From a virus, in IMG/VR virus record IMGVR_UViG_3300033571_010750, positions 1 through 31,475 of that record: a stretch of DNA of 31,475 bases; one strand, given 5' to 3'. The notes under the pieces were generated by a model, which ran no database searches, was not told the origin of the DNA, and worked only from the letters and a program-made list of their open reading frames with translations. Numbering within the stretch: position 1 is the first letter of the stretch; every line of letters begins with the position of its first letter. The position numbers and the translations under genes were made by a program. Shown here in pieces: positions 1,383 to 31,293 of this stretch.

Positions 1383-3218
1383 CTACTTAATTGAACGAGA
1401 TAATTCTACCCATCTGTCGCTTATTGATGCTGGTATTTTACGCATCGTCACAACGGAATAGGTTGTGGGCGTCACGTTTACGGAGCCGGTGAGCATAAAC
1501 GTTACTGAATGCACGAGAGTCGTGTTGCCGTTCGTGAAAACTAAATGAACGATCTGATCGTCACTTGCATCATCGAGCGTTGTTATGCTGGTTGCGCCGG
1601 TATTTGACAGCAACAGGGAGCCGATTTTGTCCACCGAGGGTGTTGTATCTCCATCAGCTGCCGCGCTGGAAAGAGATCGAAACTCTTGAATAGCAAAGCC
1701 GCCTGCATCAGACACACGAGCGATGTCAGTAAGCCCATCGCTCGCCATGAAACGAAGTCCAACATCATCTTGCCAGAACAAAAAAGGCATCGACACTTCA
1801 TTATTAGATGAGTTTGTTGGATAGCCTTTTATAGAAACCCTTTTACTAGTGCCGGTCGCTCGCAAATCCATCACGTAATTGCCGCTTGGATCGGTTGGCG
1901 CTACCTTGTGTGTGAAAGTAGACCCAAGCGCACCGTTGCCTATTAGCCAACGCCCGTACTGGTCAACTAAAAAAATAGAACGGTCAGCCGAGTCTAGGTA
2001 TGTCCATGACACGCCGCCATCGCTTGAGGTGCCGCTGGAATGTGTTGGCGGTGTTGCCCCCGTGGTGCCCGCCCCGGTGCTAACGTAGTGCTTATCATCG
2101 TTTTCCCGGTACACTCCAGCGCCGGAAATAACTTGTCCAGATGCCCAGCGTTCATACCGACCTGCGATAGAAAGCCACGGCGCAAGTAATCGCACACCCC
2201 AAGACCAAAAATCACCTCCGCTCTCCTTGCGAAACTGCTGTATGGCTGCCCCTCTAAAGCCGCGCTTATCCGCAGCGCCTAAAGCAAACTGTCCGACGCT
2301 CCATAACAAGGATGCGAGTCTGTTTGTGGCTGACGTGGTTCCAGCAGTTCCGAAGTTATTGAGGTTTACTACCGCATGGTGCCCACTGTCCACAGACCAA
2401 TGAGTATCATCCGGCGCGGAATCTTTCGATACGACCCCAAAGTGCTTGGTGCTTTCACCCGCAGCAGAAAAGTCATTGATGCCGCTGAAATCAATGAACA
2501 CGACATCATCCGGCAAAGTCGCCTGACTGAGTAATGATGCCCTGTCATATTTCACGTTAGGGGGGATGATGAATGTCTTTTTCCCACTGTTAACAGCAGC
2601 GTCAAGTATCGTTGCGGTGTTATCTGTAGTTCCATCGGCAACAACCCCTGTAAAGTCTGTTACCGATGTTAGATCGGTGCGCAACTTTTCTTTTAGGTTA
2701 CGCTGAACGCCGCCCGTAGCGGTGTGCGTTGTGGATACCAGCGCGGCGTCTGTCGCTGTGCCCGTTCCTTCGACAAGTATCGGCTGGTTGTCCTCGTCGA
2801 AGTTGATGTACTTCCCGAAGCGGTTGGCGGGTAGCATCATGTTCCCGCTAGCCGAGTCGCCAGGCGCAACGCGTAAACTTACGGCGTCCACAACCTGCAT
2901 CATTAGCCATAAGCGATCAAAATCAGGGTTTACATTGTCCGCGTTCCAGTCGCCAAATTGCTGATAATCTTGCTCTCGAAGAAGCCGCAATTTCCGGTAA
3001 ATGATGACAACATCACCATTTGTTGGCGCAACGGAAAACGTCACATTGCCGCCAGATACTTGCCCCACCCCTGAAACCGTGAAGCCAGAAGTCTGCTCGA
3101 CGTTATCGACTTTTACGCCAATATCCTCGTCATCCTCGATCTTGAAGGTGTAAGGGAAAACCGTGGTTACACCGTTCGCCGTGGCGGACGTTATAGGGGT
3201 CTGTACTGGGGCTGTCAT
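1383..3218 (-). CDS. Tail fibre / tailspike with T7-type N-terminus
   Basis: A 611-residue receptor-binding protein. Residues 1-~130 resemble the T7 gp17 N-terminal tail-attachment domain (PYTFKIEDDEDIGVKVDNVEQ, then RLLREQDYQQFGDW and DFDRLWLMMQ). Around residues 170-230 there is a pectate-lyase-3-like start of a beta-helix (FTGVVADGTTDNTATI, FIIPPNV), as in tailspikes. The rest is Gly/Ser/Thr-rich beta structure ending in a compact C-terminal domain. The start has a GAGG Shine-Dalgarno and lies 63 nt after the terminase gene, with one copy of the 17-bp hairpin element between them. The gene is visibly more A+T-rich than its neighbours, which suggests a replaced host-range module. No catalytic residues or diversity-generating repeat were identified. 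Confidence 0.9.
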   Translation of the reverse strand: MTAPVQTPITSATANGVTTVFPYTFKIEDDEDIGVKVDNVEQTSGFTVSGVGQVSGGNVTFSVAPTNGDVVIIYRKLRLLREQDYQQFGDWNADNVNPDFDRLWLMMQVVDAVSLRVAPGDSASGNMMLPANRFGKYINFDEDNQPILVEGTGTATDAALVSTTHTATGGVQRNLKEKLRTDLTSVTDFTGVVADGTTDNTATILDAAVNSGKKTFIIPPNVKYDRASLLSQATLPDDVVFIDFSGINDFSAAGESTKHFGVVSKDSAPDDTHWSVDSGHHAVVNLNNFGTAGTTSATNRLASLLWSVGQFALGAADKRGFRGAAIQQFRKESGGDFWSWGVRLLAPWLSIAGRYERWASGQVISGAGVYRENDDKHYVSTGAGTTGATPPTHSSGTSSDGGVSWTYLDSADRSIFLVDQYGRWLIGNGALGSTFTHKVAPTDPSGNYVMDLRATGTSKRVSIKGYPTNSSNNEVSMPFLFWQDDVGLRFMASDGLTDIARVSDAGGFAIQEFRSLSSAAADGDTTPSVDKIGSLLLSNTGATSITTLDDASDDQIVHLVFTNGNTTLVHSVTFMLTGSVNVTPTTYSVVTMRKIPASISDRWVELSRSIK

Positions 3219-3266
3219 CGGCTTGCCTCTGCTGGTTTGCGTGCCAGAAGTGTGCCTTTGGTGCCC

Positions 3267-3283
3267 TGTCGGTTTCCCGACTT
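3267..3283 (-). repeat. 17-bp hairpin element, copy 1 (terL/tail fibre)
   Basis: Minus-strand sequence AAGTCGGGAAACCGACA. It forms a perfect 5-bp stem GTCGG/CCGAC closed by a GAAA (GNRA-type) tetraloop. It overlaps the terminase TAA stop and lies about 50 nt upstream of the tail-fibre start. Identical copies are at 19776-19792 and 25166-25182. No U-tract follows, so it is not a standard intrinsic terminator. Confidence 0.75.
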
Positions 3284-4925
3284 ATCGCACGAATTCGGCC
3301 TCGTGAACGTCGCCAGCCGGCCGCCAGTGCGCCCGATCCGGCGCCCGCTCGCTGTCCCGGATATGCACCTTGATCCGCTCCGGCGTGTCGGTGATAGCCG
3401 CTGCCGACGCGTCAACGTAGTCGTCCGCCTGATTCTGGGTTTCCGGGTTAAAGTCCTTCATCTGATCCCAGATTGGGCCGTCCAGCACATCCACGTGTGC
3501 CCACAGCATGCCCGCCGACATGACCGGCTCAAACGCCTCCAGGATGCGCTTGTTCTTGTTGGCGATACTTGGCTCCTCGGCCACGCCGCACGCAATCTTG
3601 CGCTGTTTCATGCACGCCTTGAGCATGGCGGGCGCGAACACTCCGGCGCCGTTGTTCTCCACCACCACCCGCGGCACGTGGAACCGCTCCACCATGTCGC
3701 AAATCTGCCACACCTGCCCGCCGGTAAAGCGCCCGGCTTTGTCCGTTTCCACGATCTCGCCCGTGAGCGCCTCCACCCGGTGCAGGTAGCGCCTCCCGTA
3801 ATCGTCCTGCAAAAGCAGGGCAACGGCCGAAACGTCGCTGTTGAGCTTGGCCGAAGATGGATCCCAGCGCATGGCCATCCCCGCGATACGCGCGCTGCCC
3901 AGCCACATTGAGGCCGTCTTGTTGGCGTACCTGATGACCGGCTCGACGTTGTACGGGATGATGCGCTCCGGGTCTAGGCGGGTTTCACCGATGGGCTTGG
4001 CCTCAAGCTGGTATTGGCTGTCCCAAGCGTTGAGCGTACGCGTCTCCTTGCGCTTAAGCTCGATTTCCTCGCGGGTGAACCGCTCCGGCCAGGCGCACAA
4101 GCTGCAAATGTCGATCACCATTTTTGGCGGGGTGTGGAACTCGATGCCGTTGGCGTTGCGCCGGTAGTCGATGCCCTCCACCATCATTCGAGCGAATTTG
4201 CCAATACCGGCCAGCACGTACAGCCCATCACCTCCCACCGGGTGCGAGTAGGCGTACCGCGTCTTTGTGTCGGTCTGCTCGTAGCGCACCATGTGCTCAA
4301 ACAACGGGATTTTGAGCAAGTCCGCGCCCCCTTCGATCTGTTCCGTGTAGATGCTGTCGTGCGTGTGTGGCGTGCCTACGAATGTCTTTTGCCAGTCCAC
4401 CGTAAGGATGTGGGTAGACTCCTCGATTTTCTGGCGCAGGTTCAGCCGCGACTCGGCTTTTTTGATGTTCTTCGGCACTTCAATATCGTCGAAGTCCGCA
4501 TCGTCCGCGCGCGAGCCGGTGGCGTTGCTGTTCACGCCCACCGCCTCCATGCTTGGGTTTCTGGCGTCGCCAGCACCCACCACCCAAAACGACATGGCCC
4601 CCGGCCTGCCCGGTGGCAGCATGCCCACGCAAAGCGGATGCCTGCGCAATACGTTCAGGGTGTCGCGCGTCAGCTTGCCCGCCAGCTTATCGTCGGCGGC
4701 GTAGATCAAAGAGCGGTTATTGCGGTTGCGATATAGCTTGTATGCCTTCCACACCGCGTAAATGGTGGATTTTGCAGCGCCGCGGAACACCATCAGCACG
4801 CGCACCCGCGCCTTGCAGGTGTCCAGCCATTGGCATATACGCACATGCAGCAGCGGGACTTTCCAGCCTTGCAGCCGTGCCCACATGATGAAGAAGGTCA
4901 GAAACGAGACTTCACGATTTGCCAT
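3282..4925 (-). CDS. terL: Terminase large subunit
   Basis: The DNA-packaging motor ATPase and headful or cos nuclease. With the ATG at 4925 it is 547 residues long; a TTG five codons upstream is also possible. Residues 47-54 (FRGAAKST) are the Walker A loop in the variant common in T7-like and BPP-1-like terminases. DDADFDDIE at 141-149 is a Walker B-like acidic strand. The C-terminal half carries acidic blocks expected of an RNase H-like nuclease (MRWDPSSAKLNSDVSAV, VVVENNGAG, DDYVDASAAAI). The start overlaps the end of the small subunit by 14 nt, a normal packaging-module coupling. The stop overlaps the first hairpin element. Confidence 0.93.
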   Translation of the reverse strand: MANREVSFLTFFIMWARLQGWKVPLLHVRICQWLDTCKARVRVLMVFRGAAKSTIYAVWKAYKLYRNRNNRSLIYAADDKLAGKLTRDTLNVLRRHPLCVGMLPPGRPGAMSFWVVGAGDARNPSMEAVGVNSNATGSRADDADFDDIEVPKNIKKAESRLNLRQKIEESTHILTVDWQKTFVGTPHTHDSIYTEQIEGGADLLKIPLFEHMVRYEQTDTKTRYAYSHPVGGDGLYVLAGIGKFARMMVEGIDYRRNANGIEFHTPPKMVIDICSLCAWPERFTREEIELKRKETRTLNAWDSQYQLEAKPIGETRLDPERIIPYNVEPVIRYANKTASMWLGSARIAGMAMRWDPSSAKLNSDVSAVALLLQDDYGRRYLHRVEALTGEIVETDKAGRFTGGQVWQICDMVERFHVPRVVVENNGAGVFAPAMLKACMKQRKIACGVAEEPSIANKNKRILEAFEPVMSAGMLWAHVDVLDGPIWDQMKDFNPETQNQADDYVDASAAAITDTPERIKVHIRDSERAPDRAHWRPAGDVHEAEFVR

Positions 4926-12817: not shown

Positions 12818-13263
12818 TTGTTAGCCTTCCAAAAGTCGTAGAAATTGGGGTTATCGTGGGCGGGCTTGTCGGAGATCGTGAACCCAAGCCAGCGCAGCCA
12901 CGCAAGTGATACGGTGTTGTCCACATGCACGCGGTTGAATAACAGCAGGTTATCGCCCATCATGCGCTCGACCTCGCCCACGGACGCGCGCAGGAATTCA
13001 CGGCCCACGCGGTGGATTGCATCAGTTCCCAGCATCCAAGGGCTGGCCACACCCGGCGCAGCGGTCGGCGTGACCCCATATACCGCTGCCACGTCATCCC
13101 CCACCACGGCGGCACGCGTCCAGGTGGATATGCGGGCGCTTTCCCGCACGGCTTCGGCCGGGTCGGGTAAGCCGGTGGCGCGCAGTTCCACCACGTCAGC
13201 GGCGCGCAGGTGCGCGGCGACGTATTCAACATCGGCGGGCGTAGCGTCGCGCAGTTGCATCAT
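12802..13263 (-). CDS. GNAT-like internal virion protein A (gp13-like)
   Basis: A 153-residue protein with the outline of a GNAT fold (MQLRDATPADVEYVAAHLR at the start; MLGTDAIHRVGREFLR; NLLLFNRVHVDNTVSLAWLRWLGF at the end). It matches the DUF2833 family that includes T7 internal virion protein gp13, needed for morphogenesis rather than known as an active acetyltransferase. The ATG at 13263 overlaps the Rz stop as ATGA and has a GGAAAG ribosome site; a second ATG follows directly. Enzymatic activity cannot be judged from the sequence. Confidence 0.78.
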   Translation of the reverse strand: MMQLRDATPADVEYVAAHLRAADVVELRATGLPDPAEAVRESARISTWTRAAVVGDDVAAVYGVTPTAAPGVASPWMLGTDAIHRVGREFLRASVGEVERMMGDNLLLFNRVHVDNTVSLAWLRWLGFTISDKPAHDNPNFYDFWKANKCATR

Positions 13264-26111: not shown

Positions 26112-26479
26112 GCGGACGCCGGGCGCTTTGCCGCCATCCGCAGCTTGTCCAGCCATTCGCGGGTCTGCGGCGGAATCTCGCGCGACCGCGGCGGCGTCAG
26201 CATTCGATCCACGCCCAACGCTGGCACTGGCGGCAACGACGCGATGAAATTTTTCGGCGCTGGCCACCTTTCGCAGTTCGCCGCCATCGTCAGGAAAGCC
26301 CGCCGTATGCGCGGCTCGTCTCTCGCCTGATCCCAGGTGTGCGGCAGACTCGCCAGCACGGCCAGCCAAGCGTTCGCAAGCGACTCTATGGTGTCACCGG
26401 ATGGAGAGCCTTGCAGCCGCAGCATCAGCATGCCTTGCAGCCCCTTGATCACCGATTTTTTTAACCACTCAGGGCGCAT
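26108..26479 (-). CDS. Early phage protein next to the replication gene
   Basis: A 123-residue helical protein (ESLANAWLAVLASLPHTWDQ; IRRAFLTMAANCERWPAPKN). The phrase W(P)APKNFIASLP recurs in phage proteins encoded next to DUF1376-type replication genes, where a helicase-loader-like role has been proposed; that link is from memory and weak. The ATG overlaps the upstream stop region by 11 nt, with a GAGAGG ribosome site. Confidence 0.6.
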   Translation of the reverse strand: MRPEWLKKSVIKGLQGMLMLRLQGSPSGDTIESLANAWLAVLASLPHTWDQARDEPRIRRAFLTMAANCERWPAPKNFIASLPPVPALGVDRMLTPPRSREIPPQTREWLDKLRMAAKRPASA

Positions 26480-27191
26480 TTTTCATCCTCTCCAAGACCA
26501 TTATCGACTCCATCGTTGCGCTGGGTTTTCGTGCGAAGTTCAACAGCCGTTCGCGGTTTGCCAGATCGTTTCTCACGATCCCCAGCGCGTAGCCAAACCC
26601 CTTCCCCCGGTCAACCGCTGTTTTCCCTGCGGTTTCAAAGTCGCCAATGGTTGCGCCTTTCGAGATTAATTCAATTAAATCAGGATGTTGCGGGTTAACT
26701 TGCCCAATACCCGCAGACCTCAACGCCACACAAACCGCTGTTGCGGTACTGGGAATCACCACAGGTGTGTTGTTGATGTTGGTTTTTATTTCTGGATTCT
26801 GGCTAATGGATTCTGGATTCTGGTTAGGTTCACGAAATGAGGACGAATCGTTGCACGAATCGTGCCGTTTACGCTTGGCCTCGCGTGCAACGGCAATTGC
26901 ACGATTCGTCTCCGCTTGCTTGGTGTATGAGGCAAGTTCTTCGTCACACCTTTTGTTATGCCATCCGTCATCGCCCAGAGCAAAGAACTCGTTCAGCACC
27001 ACAGCAACGGCTTCGCGTTCCGCCTTGCTGTTTGCGCGAACCAGCCTGCATGCCTGCTTGATGTCGGCGGGGATCGGTGACTCGGTGCGGTAATAGGCGC
27101 GCATCAGACGCGAGTACGCAGCGTCCTCAAGCATCGACAGGTGCGCGGTGTCGGCGTCGTAGTCGCCTATGTGGTGTTTGTAGAAGTTCAC
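26469..27191 (-). CDS. DUF1376 (YdaU-like) replication protein
   Basis: A 240-residue protein. Residues 1-~75 (MNFYKHHIGDYDADTAHLSM, then EDAAYSRLMRAYY) are a DUF1376 / YdaU-like winged-helix domain, typical of phage replication-initiation proteins. Residues ~85-150 are a basic then Asn/Ser/Pro-rich linker, and the remainder is a small helical domain. The linker DNA carries several short direct and inverted repeats (26791-26910), as lambda O carries its origin. The start is GTG with a poor ribosome site. The gene lies downstream of the divergent plus-strand cassette and has its own A+T-rich upstream region. Confidence 0.82.
   Translation of the reverse strand: MNFYKHHIGDYDADTAHLSMLEDAAYSRLMRAYYRTESPIPADIKQACRLVRANSKAEREAVAVVLNEFFALGDDGWHNKRCDEELASYTKQAETNRAIAVAREAKRKRHDSCNDSSSFREPNQNPESISQNPEIKTNINNTPVVIPSTATAVCVALRSAGIGQVNPQHPDLIELISKGATIGDFETAGKTAVDRGKGFGYALGIVRNDLANRERLLNFARKPSATMESIMVLERMKNAP
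26791..26910 (-). repeat. Repeat cluster in replication gene, candidate origin
   Basis: Within the linker of the DUF1376 gene, GGATTCTGG occurs three times (26794, 26808, 26815, plus strand). GACGAATCG at 26842, CACGAATCG at 26854 (inside the palindrome GCACGAATCGTGC, 26853-26865) and an inverted CGATTCGTC at 26902-26910 form a second family. An A/T-rich run lies beside them at about 26779-26792. Iterons plus A/T-rich DNA inside an initiator gene is the lambda-type origin layout. Confidence 0.45.
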
Positions 27192-27204
27192 TATTTATCC
27201 AATA

Positions 27205-27217
27205 AAATCAGTGATTT
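27205..27217. promoter_or_regulatory. Palindrome in the leftward control region
   Basis: AAATCA-G-TGATTT is a perfect 13-bp palindrome 14 nt upstream of the DUF1376 GTG start. On the minus strand it lies between TTGATA and GATAAA boxes separated by 17 nt, so it could be an operator in the spacer of a leftward promoter. Those boxes leave almost no leader before the start codon, so the promoter assignment is weak. Confidence 0.4.
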
Positions 27218-27250
27218 ATCAAAATAGTTTGGTTTGTGCTTAAAAAGGTG

Positions 27251-27278
27251 TTGACCTTACGCGCAATGCGCGTATAAT
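27251..27278 (+). promoter_or_regulatory. Strong sigma-70 promoter of the rightward cassette
   Basis: TTGACC and a perfect TATAAT separated by 16 nt, driving the two plus-strand genes that start at 27337. It is the best consensus promoter seen in the window. The spacer is filled by a palindromic operator. A good AGGAGA ribosome site (27325-27330) precedes the first gene. Confidence 0.8.
27258..27274. promoter_or_regulatory. Operator palindrome in the cassette promoter
   Basis: TACGCGC-AAT-GCGCGTA has perfect 7-bp arms and lies between the -35 and -10 boxes. A dimeric HTH protein bound here would block RNA polymerase. The cassette's own second gene encodes an HTH protein and is the obvious candidate for autorepression. 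Confidence 0.72.
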
Positions 27279-27336
27279 TCAAACCGTCGATACACGACAA
27301 CCGCGCCTCGGGATCAGGGGCCACAGGAGATGAAAA

Positions 27337-27594
27337 ATGAAGGTTACAAACTACAGCGTCAATGAAAACGGACTGAAAGAAATTCAGCAATTTCTTGCTG
27401 AGAATCACAAACTCGGCGGCGATCACTTCACCAAAGATATGCTTCGCGCTTGGGCAGCAGACGCAGAATTTCAGCTTGCGGAGGGGAATCCCCCTAGCAT
27501 CGAAATTAAATCGTGGGACTCGATACACGGCGCCACAATCGAATACACGATCACAAAGCGCGGCCTTGATTCGTATGTTGTCGAAATTGAGTAA
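27337..27594 (+). CDS. Small acidic protein, first gene of autoregulated cassette
   Basis: An 85-residue, acidic protein (VNENGLKEIQQFLAENHKLG, then MLRAWAADAEFQLAEGNPPS, ending VVEIE). There is no signal peptide, membrane span or Cys. It is driven by the strong promoter at 27251 and has an AGGAGA ribosome site. It overlaps the HTH gene. Sequence-similar small proteins in other phages seem likely, but I cannot name the family. The context (tiny acidic protein, then HTH autoregulator, in a cassette oriented against the early operon) is that of anti-CRISPR/aca pairs; a toxin-antitoxin pair or other moron is the alternative. Confidence 0.78.
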   Translation: MKVTNYSVNENGLKEIQQFLAENHKLGGDHFTKDMLRAWAADAEFQLAEGNPPSIEIKSWDSIHGATIEYTITKRGLDSYVVEIE

Positions 27595-27814
27595 CCACCA
27601 AAACCGCTCCGGGGGCCGCGCAAGCGGTTCCCGCAACCCAACACCGCAAGAAATCATCACCGCGCGCACCAAGGCCGGTTTAACGCAAACGTCAGCAGCG
27701 GAATTGCTGCACACAACTTGCCGCGTGTGGCAGCAGTGGGAGGCAGGCGATAGGCGCATGCATCCTGCGTTTTGGGAGTTGTTCCGGCTCAAGCTCACCC
27801 CAAATACTCCTTAA
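27575..27814 (+). CDS. XRE/Aca-like HTH autoregulator
   Basis: A 79-residue protein. After a basic N-terminal lead comes a helix-turn-helix (NPTPQEIITARTKAGLTQTS, then AAELLHTTCRVWQQWEAGDR), ending HPAFWELFRLKL. This Trp/Gln-rich HTH type is common in Burkholderiales prophages and resembles small Aca-type regulators in size and layout. The ATG at 27575 overlaps the preceding gene by 20 nt, so translation is probably coupled; the fold needs only the part from residue ~20. The 3' end overlaps the convergent nuclease gene by 20 nt. Confidence 0.78.
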   Translation: MLSKLSNHQNRSGGRASGSRNPTPQEIITARTKAGLTQTSAAELLHTTCRVWQQWEAGDRRMHPAFWELFRLKLTPNTP

Positions 27815-28190
27815 TCATACGCATTGCCGCCGTAGCGCCTGCACAAAACCGCGCGCTGTAACCCTGCTGAATCAGCGCATCAAGATAAATCCGCTGATCG
27901 CGCTCGTGCTGGTTACGAGGCTTCGTCCAGTCGGCCCGCTTAAGCTCAATCCGCAGACCGTGATAACCGTTGCGCGGCACGTCCAGCACTAAATCAGGCG
28001 CACCAGGGCGCATTCCCTGGCTTTTGAGCGCGTTGACCTGGCGCGACCTTGCCCCGGCATCACCGGCCAGTACGGCGCCGTTAGGCACCGCGTACAGCAG
28101 CTCTGGGTTGATTCCCTTGCTTGGGGCAAAACTGTCCCACCAGTCGATTAGGGCGGATTGCTCTTGGCGCTCAGTTGGGATGGGCTTCAT
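27795..28190 (-). CDS. VRR-NUC family nuclease
   Basis: A 131-residue PD-(D/E)xK-type nuclease. Motifs visible are YAVPNGA (residues 33-39), the PGAPD box (63-67) with the catalytic Asp and IELK (81-84) with Glu and Lys, then a YLDALIQQGYSARFCAG end, all typical of stand-alone phage VRR-NUC proteins. These are thought to act on branched or replication intermediates. The ATG at 28190 overlaps the methyltransferase stop (ATGA), so the two are coupled. It is the last early gene before the plus-strand cassette. Confidence 0.9.
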   Translation of the reverse strand: MKPIPTERQEQSALIDWWDSFAPSKGINPELLYAVPNGAVLAGDAGARSRQVNALKSQGMRPGAPDLVLDVPRNGYHGLRIELKRADWTKPRNQHERDQRIYLDALIQQGYSARFCAGATAAMRMIKEYLG

Positions 28191-28768
28191 AAAAACGCCG
28201 TCCATTGATCGGACATCGCATCCGCAATGCCGGGGAAAAATCTCGACCGTTCGCGCCACCTGTCCGGGCTTGGCGGCATGCGATGCACTCGCGGCGTGCG
28301 GCCTTCAACAATCTTTGTGGGTGTCAGCTTCGGCAGATTGCGCAGCCACAAGCACGTGCGCTTGGTTTCTCCGTGGCCGAACTGCCACGGCTGCACGGAT
28401 TGCGCTGGCTCCTGATAATTGCGGATCAGCGCCTTTGCGTGCCGGTGCATCACCGGGTTTTCCACACAGACGCGCTCTATCGGCGCATTCCAGAAATCAG
28501 AAAACAACTCGGCAGCCTGCCGCAAATCAGCCCACAGATTGCGCTCCGCCAGCCAGCGCACGCCTGAGTTACAGAGCCGGGTGCATGGCGGGTGCGCCAC
28601 CATCAGCAAATCCCAGCCATCGTTCAAAATTTCGCGCGCATCGCCCTGGATGTGGAAGTCAGAACGATCCTCAGACGGCAACAAATCGCACGACCATGCC
28701 TCATGCCCGCGCCGCTTAAAAGCGTTGCGCACTATCCCGGAAAACTCGCAGGCGACAAGGACTCTCAC
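28187..28768 (-). CDS. DNA (cytosine-5) methyltransferase-like protein
   Basis: A 193-residue Dcm-like enzyme. Residues 3-30 (VLVACEFSGIVRNAFKRRGH) form the AdoMet-binding motif I. HPPCTRL has the Pro-Cys catalytic pair at residues 61-62. ENP at 103-105 stands for the ENV motif. GHGETKRTCLWLRNLPKL matches motif VIII of small phage cytosine methyltransferases. It lacks a long target-recognition domain. A role in shielding phage DNA from restriction is the usual inference. Coupled on both sides by short overlaps. Confidence 0.86.
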   Translation of the reverse strand: MRVLVACEFSGIVRNAFKRRGHEAWSCDLLPSEDRSDFHIQGDAREILNDGWDLLMVAHPPCTRLCNSGVRWLAERNLWADLRQAAELFSDFWNAPIERVCVENPVMHRHAKALIRNYQEPAQSVQPWQFGHGETKRTCLWLRNLPKLTPTKIVEGRTPRVHRMPPSPDRWRERSRFFPGIADAMSDQWTAFL

Positions 28769-30858: not shown

Positions 30859-31293
30859 ATGAATATTCAAGAAGTTAGGCGCTCAAGGCTCCGTCAATTG
30901 ATCCGGGAAAAGTTCAACAACCGGCAAGCGGACTTTGTTGCGGCGACAGAGATCAACCAAGGAGAGCTGTCATCGCTTTTAAAAACAAAGTCATTTGGCG
31001 AAAAGAAAGCCCGCAAGATTGAATTGCTTGTAAACGCCTCGCCTGGCTGGTTGGATCAAAAAACGGATCAACCGGAACAAGCGGCAATCAATACCGACCA
31101 AGACCCCCGTGCGGCACTACTGGTGGAGGACTACTTCTGGCTGACTGAGGCGGAAAAAAAGAAGGTGCTGGCCGAGGTAAAGGCAATGGCCGATGGCAAC
31201 CGCATCGTGATTAAGGAAATGTCCGGGAAACTTAACCCGCCTCCAGACGAGTACGTAGGCAAGATTTTGAACGGGAAAAAGGCGAAGCGATGA
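30859..31293 (+). CDS. Short CI-like repressor without peptidase domain
   Basis: A 144-residue protein divergent from cro. Residues ~8-52 (RSRLRQLIREKFNNRQADFV, then TEINQGELSSLLKTKSFGEK) are an HTH of the phage-repressor type. The rest is a charged helix and tail, with no LexA/S24 peptidase signature and no Ser-Lys dyad motif. It therefore probably cannot autocleave with RecA, and induction must work by another route such as an antirepressor. Stop and next start overlap (ATGA). Confidence 0.83.
   Translation: MNIQEVRRSRLRQLIREKFNNRQADFVAATEINQGELSSLLKTKSFGEKKARKIELLVNASPGWLDQKTDQPEQAAINTDQDPRAALLVEDYFWLTEAEKKKVLAEVKAMADGNRIVIKEMSGKLNPPPDEYVGKILNGKKAKR

Follow-up and report, generated by a model that had tools for sequence, protein, structure and literature searches.

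A predicted aca10-type early operon and a recurrent two-hairpin leader RNA in a viral sequence

The two-gene cassette at positions 27251–27814 (plus strand) of an IMG/VR virus record is likely to be an early operon of the acr-aca10 type, autoregulated and carried by a tailed phage. The record was analysed over its full 31,475 bases, referred to below as the window, and elsewhere encodes tail, head-tail adaptor and endolysin proteins and, at 30859–31290, a repressor-like one. On infection the strong promoter would fire at once and give a short mRNA, the leader of which would fold into two hairpins ahead of the Shine-Dalgarno sequence. An 85-aa protein would be translated first and, as its associations suggest, would block a host defence; an Aca10-type protein would come next, dimerise on a palindrome inside the promoter and shut the operon off. 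Judged from sequence, the promoter, the operator and the place of the HTH protein in the Aca10 family are firm parts of this explanation, and so are the predicted leader hairpins, which comparison and covariation support. The elements of the cassette are as follows.

27251–27278, plus strand: sigma-70-type promoter, TTGACC-N16-TATAAT, 11 of 12 consensus positions
27258–27274, strandless: operator of the Aca10 type formed by the perfect palindrome TACGCGCA-A-TGCGCGTA; close to the published Aca10 operator and conserved in related loci
27286–27298, plus strand: leader hairpin P1 (GUCG-AUACA-CGAC), about 8 nt past the -10 box; most related leaders have a hairpin here, with covarying sequence
27305–27321, plus strand: leader hairpin P2 (GCCUC-GGGAUCA-GGGGC), directly before the Shine-Dalgarno sequence; core present in at least 120 viral stretches
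27325–27329, plus strand: Shine-Dalgarno sequence AGGAG
27337–27594, plus strand: acidic 85-aa protein (pI 4.9), first member of a new family in phages and plasmids; candidate anti-CRISPR or other counter-defence protein
27587–27814, plus strand: predicted Aca10-family HTH repressor; TTG start at 27587 likely, ATG at 27575 possible; 36/57 identity to Aca10 (7XI5), DNA-contact residues conserved

Promoter and layout of the cassette

The -35 box (27251–27256) and the -10 box (27273–27278) are separated by a spacer of 16 nt. The near-consensus promoter named in a preliminary description of this DNA was confirmed as the sole promoter-like site within 26500–28500, where shuffled sequences yield 1.2 sites at the much laxer cut-off of 9/12. 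The palindrome TACGCGCAATGCGCGTA fills the spacer and reaches two bases into the -10 box; it is perfect, as had been described, but its length is 8+1+8 rather than 7+7, and it is one of only two equally perfect palindromes across the 31-kb window. The small acidic protein and the HTH reading frame, which overlaps the 3' end of the 85-aa frame, are both present, and the cassette indeed lies opposite to its main flanking genes, a DUF1376 primosomal-like gene (26469–27191) and a VRR-NUC gene (27795–28259), both on the minus strand. The HTH frame ends at 27814 as expected; its product had been given as 79 aa, counted from the ATG, but because relatives begin with M-x-N-H-P-N-R the TTG is probably the start, which gives 75 aa. 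No known phage closely related to the window was found, similarity being confined to short patches, and relatives of the adjacent VRR-NUC gene, sought in order to locate an empty site, were not found.

The HTH protein and its operator

The HTH protein is a member of the Aca10 family. It matches PDB 7XI5, which is Aca10 of Pseudomonas citronellolis (PMC9410881), at an E-value of 8.7e-22, and 36 of the 57 aligned residues are identical (63%), covering 57 of Aca10's 65 residues. The Aca survey collected Aca10 homologues at a cover of 80–100% and an identity of 50–100%, and the HTH protein falls within both ranges. Residues Q22, R34, Q37, R44 and E52 of Aca10 are conserved in it. Q22, Q37 and R44 are the DNA-binding residues of Aca10 and G49 and E52 its dimer residues; G49 is replaced by Ala in the window protein, likewise in most relatives.

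The published Aca10 operator AATACGCTCATTGAGCGTATT overlaps the -35 and -10 boxes (PMC9410881). When compared with the 19-bp minimal site ATACGCTCATTGAGCGTAT, the window palindrome differs in one base per arm, in the centre and in one end base. The linkage of operator and regulator was examined in loci fetched by HTH similarity, allowing up to two mismatches from the joint consensus. Operator sites were present in 38 upstream regions (90 kb searched) against 0 in the remaining 228 kb of those loci, the independent cases being fewer than 38 because near-identical contigs are included in the count. As related HTH genes of other phages are preceded by the same operator, the cassette arrangement is not due to chance. 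Residue 33 of the HTH protein apparently tracks the operator half-site: Cys33 occurred with ACGCGCA in 13/15 cases and Leu33 with ACGCTCA in 10/10 (Fisher p 2e-5, without kinship correction). From the matching operator and the published work on Aca10 we infer that the HTH protein would repress the cassette promoter. The aca-like half of the cassette, an Aca10-family protein with a palindrome of the Aca10 operator type, is strongly supported.

The acrIC7-acrIC6-aca10 operon of P. citronellolis (PMC9410881, PMC7913775; 7XI5) resembles the cassette in its repressor family, in a near-identical palindrome over the spacer and -10 box, in the small genes upstream of the repressor and in potential leader hairpins, seen in L036. 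In contrast to that operon, the window has one cargo gene, unrelated to AcrIC6 and AcrIC7, and combines ACGCGCA with Cys33, whereas Aca10 combines ACGCTCA with Leu33. The window protein also differs from Aca10 by an N-terminal NHQNR extension.

A recurrent two-hairpin leader

The leader shows the same order of elements between operator and first gene in loci with unrelated cargo, namely a variable P1, the P2 core CGCGCCTCGGG-n-CAGGGGC and the Shine-Dalgarno sequence. Searching with the P2 core pattern by itself gives at least 120 viral stretches. Among the matches listed, 125 distinct P2 sites were obtained, 90% of which are followed immediately by a Shine-Dalgarno sequence and a start codon (control 6%). 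At 30% of the 125 sites listed, P1 forms a stem of 6 or more Watson-Crick pairs that ends beside P2, compared to 0.8% in shuffled sequences and 2–4% in neighbouring controls, and a promoter of at least 9/12 lies upstream of the leader at 50% of them (shuffled 8%).

In 18 leaders aligned in one register, covariation of P1 amounted to 28 cells with two-sided change against 7.4 in shuffled sequences (0/500 shuffles as high), a count that serves as an illustration only because a stem at this place was the criterion by which the leaders were picked; sliding the P1 partner strand destroys the pairing. For leaders selected by protein or operator rather than by their own sequence, the two-stem score exceeded that of shuffles in 18/38 at p <0.05. 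Among these leaders, other stems can occupy the P2 position: GCCUCAG/CUGAGGC in L020, GCCAGG/CCUGGC in L060 and CGGGC/GCCCG in L034. The folding energy of the single window leader is unexceptional (z -0.8), and the leader claim therefore rests on comparison and not on energy. The leader matched no family in Rfam, permissive settings included. Two papers on Aca10 and Aca promoters mention no leader, hairpin or stem-loop; a description elsewhere is conceivable.

At 52 of the 131 leader sites listed, an Aca10-type HTH gene follows on the same strand at a distance of up to 2.5 kb (upstream control 2), a share that is somewhat inflated because some sites came from loci fetched by HTH or operator. 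The first genes behind the leader are diverse and form 96 clusters out of 119 among the matches listed, mostly unrelated and of unknown function. Families recognised among them are DUF932, RadC, the ArdC N-terminal domain, DUF3560, DUF2958 and a small number of others; ArdC acts against restriction (PMC7213743).

Two further features of these loci were observed. The two-hairpin leader, which is common to operons that differ in operator and have unrelated first genes, occurs as many as three times within a single contig (L139). The motif NHPNR (NHQNR in the window HTH protein, 27590–27605) stands at the start of many Aca10-type HTH proteins and of unrelated early proteins as well, namely 19 of the 123 leader-linked first genes listed (e.g., L094, L100, L112, L113, L123, L200 and L203); it may be conserved because of the nucleotide sequence past the start codon rather than because of the peptide.

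Aca2 of phage ZF40 exerts control at both the DNA and the RNA level. As in the Aca2 operon, the first gene of an Acr-type operon is here separated from the operator by a structured leader; the cassette differs in that RNA binding by Aca10-type proteins is not indicated here and in that the P2 core is kept while operators change. This constancy fits action of a common factor (ribosome, nuclease or host protein) no less well than action of the repressor. We tentatively propose that promoter and leader belong to a portable module found in many phages and at least one conjugative plasmid, which would consist of a strong promoter with an exchangeable HTH operator, the two-hairpin leader with a variable P1 and a conserved P2 that adjoins the Shine-Dalgarno region, an exchangeable counter-defence or takeover gene and often an Aca10-type repressor. 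The leader might add control at the RNA level, be it by binding of the repressor as for Aca2, by a host factor or by protection of the mRNA.

The 85-aa protein family

The 85-aa protein founds a new family. Searches of Pfam, PHROGs, NCBIfam, PADLOC and PDB gave no match for it. Its AlphaFold2 model is confident (pLDDT 91), with a strand-helix-helix-strands arrangement; Foldseek returned nothing from PDB for this model and only unnamed proteins among viral models. Profile searches with the two proteins linked the HTH protein to Aca10 and the 85-aa protein to neither an Acr nor a toxin.

Members of the family occur in phage contigs, in a prophage of a betaproteobacterial MAG and on conjugative plasmids. 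The relative on a Citrobacter freundii conjugative plasmid matches the MAG relative at 66%, and that on a Verminephrobacter conjugative plasmid is partial and adjoins an XRE regulator. In bacterial chromosomes the family is rare (1/369 genomes in the class sampled). Its members stand behind different palindromes: CTACGAACATTGTTCGTAG in L230, ACGGAATCCGT in L122 and L233, TATGCGCAATGCGCATA in L227 and TATAGGCCTATA in L002. In L003, listed with L230 as sharing one operator, an Aca10-like HTH gene lies three genes downstream of the 85-aa relative, and in L233 an Aca-like HTH gene follows the relative. Near the relatives in L002, L004, L066, L223 and L231 no Aca10-like gene was found, which counts against the acr reading; the link to the regulator is therefore not obligatory.

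In L235 two family members stand in tandem (2643–2888 and 2989–3369), the second of which is fused to a C-terminal domain also present in the cargo of L018. In L224 (2501–2764) a truncated domain of the 85-aa family is fused to a domain ending in ARGVPLHDxxARLxRLLxxAxxW, which resembles the second cargo gene of an Aca10 operon (L060) and the partner genes at L002:3261–3509 and L223:4298–4540. The distribution of this domain suggests modular exchange.

Cargo of related operons and the role of the 85-aa protein

Across related loci, the genes between operator and HTH gene are highly diverse. The cargo of L055/L056 and L031–L033 matches the NCBIfam model of AcrIF11, the one Acr family of verified function in the scanned cargo, so that these related loci have the verified acr neighbour that is the usual mark of an aca gene. 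They share with the window the repressor family, the operator type and a small cargo gene in first position; they differ in encoding an ADP-ribosyltransferase from an established Acr family as cargo and in having leaders that show no clear P1 or P2. L036 carries the published acrIC7-acrIC6-aca10 promoter and operator, and its HTH protein is identical to Aca10 over a 57-aa core. According to the Aca survey, known acr genes are found with different aca genes, just as the 85-aa family is found behind different operators; only a minority (~15%) of aca-like genes adjoin known acr genes, which counts against reading the cargo gene as an acr.

We consider it fairly probable, by association, that the 85-aa protein acts against some host defence, its gene sharing an operon with an aca-type gene. 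That CRISPR-Cas is the target, again by association, is a real possibility, though not one we would favour. The gene is thus best described as a putative counter-defence or host-takeover gene, perhaps an anti-CRISPR. Neither in sequence nor in fold did the family resemble a known Acr in Pfam, NCBIfam, PHROGs or PDB, and this counts against the acr reading. Most Acr families are unrelated to each other, so similarity to a known Acr is not required. Anti-CRISPR activity is no more than plausible, since ArdC-like, RadC, DUF932 and many genes of unknown function likewise occur in operons of the same build. The proposed acr-aca cassette therefore stands in its aca half, backed by AcrIF11 in related loci and the match in L036, while the acr half stays tentative: likeness to a known Acr is missing in sequence and predicted fold, and other cargo occurs behind the same regulator and leader.

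The relative in L066 lies in a prophage, and the MAG that holds it has a type II Cas9-Cas1 locus and array, a setting that speaks for the acr reading. Cas9 (1136 aa), Cas1 and the array with 36-nt repeats were located at L239:8262–11672 and 12957–13158 of that MAG, the array being split over two contigs. In this one host, the four complete spacers had no second target in the genome, so that self-targeting was not found, which counts against the acr reading.

With regulator and operator working as described, the 85-aa protein could instead be a general early host-takeover protein, acting for example on host replication, transcription or DNA repair and not directed at immunity. The many clusters of first genes behind the same leader, RadC and DUF932 included, agree with this, as does the isolated relative in L004, flanked by an SbcC-like gene and a large ATPase-like gene. 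We regard it as unlikely, since the spread over phages, prophage and conjugative plasmids and the moves between regulators fit counter-defence better, and AcrIF11 is a counter-defence protein. A toxin-antitoxin pair of the HigBA or MqsRA kind (85-aa toxin, HTH antitoxin and autorepressor), mentioned in the preliminary description for its similar two-gene layout, shares the overlapping genes, the palindrome in the promoter and the HTH fold class of HigA and MqsA, but is very improbable given that the 85-aa protein resembles no toxin by profile or fold, that relatives exist without an adjoining HTH gene, that the HTH protein matches Aca10 much better than HigA or MqsA (E-values no better than 7e-4) and that the gene upstream of the HTH gene is freely exchanged among loci.

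Significance

The acr-aca10-type reading of the cassette gives an Aca10-type locus that is well supported and has a matching operator, and with the 85-aa protein a new small family that is a candidate anti-CRISPR. The leader is a recurrent, previously unnamed RNA before many unrelated phage early genes. Because it occurs in at least 120 viral stretches, precedes 96 clusters of first genes that are mostly unknown and is accompanied by an Aca10-type HTH gene at 52 of the 131 sites listed, the leader pattern may serve as a practical marker for candidate counter-defence genes, independent of their similarity to known Acrs.
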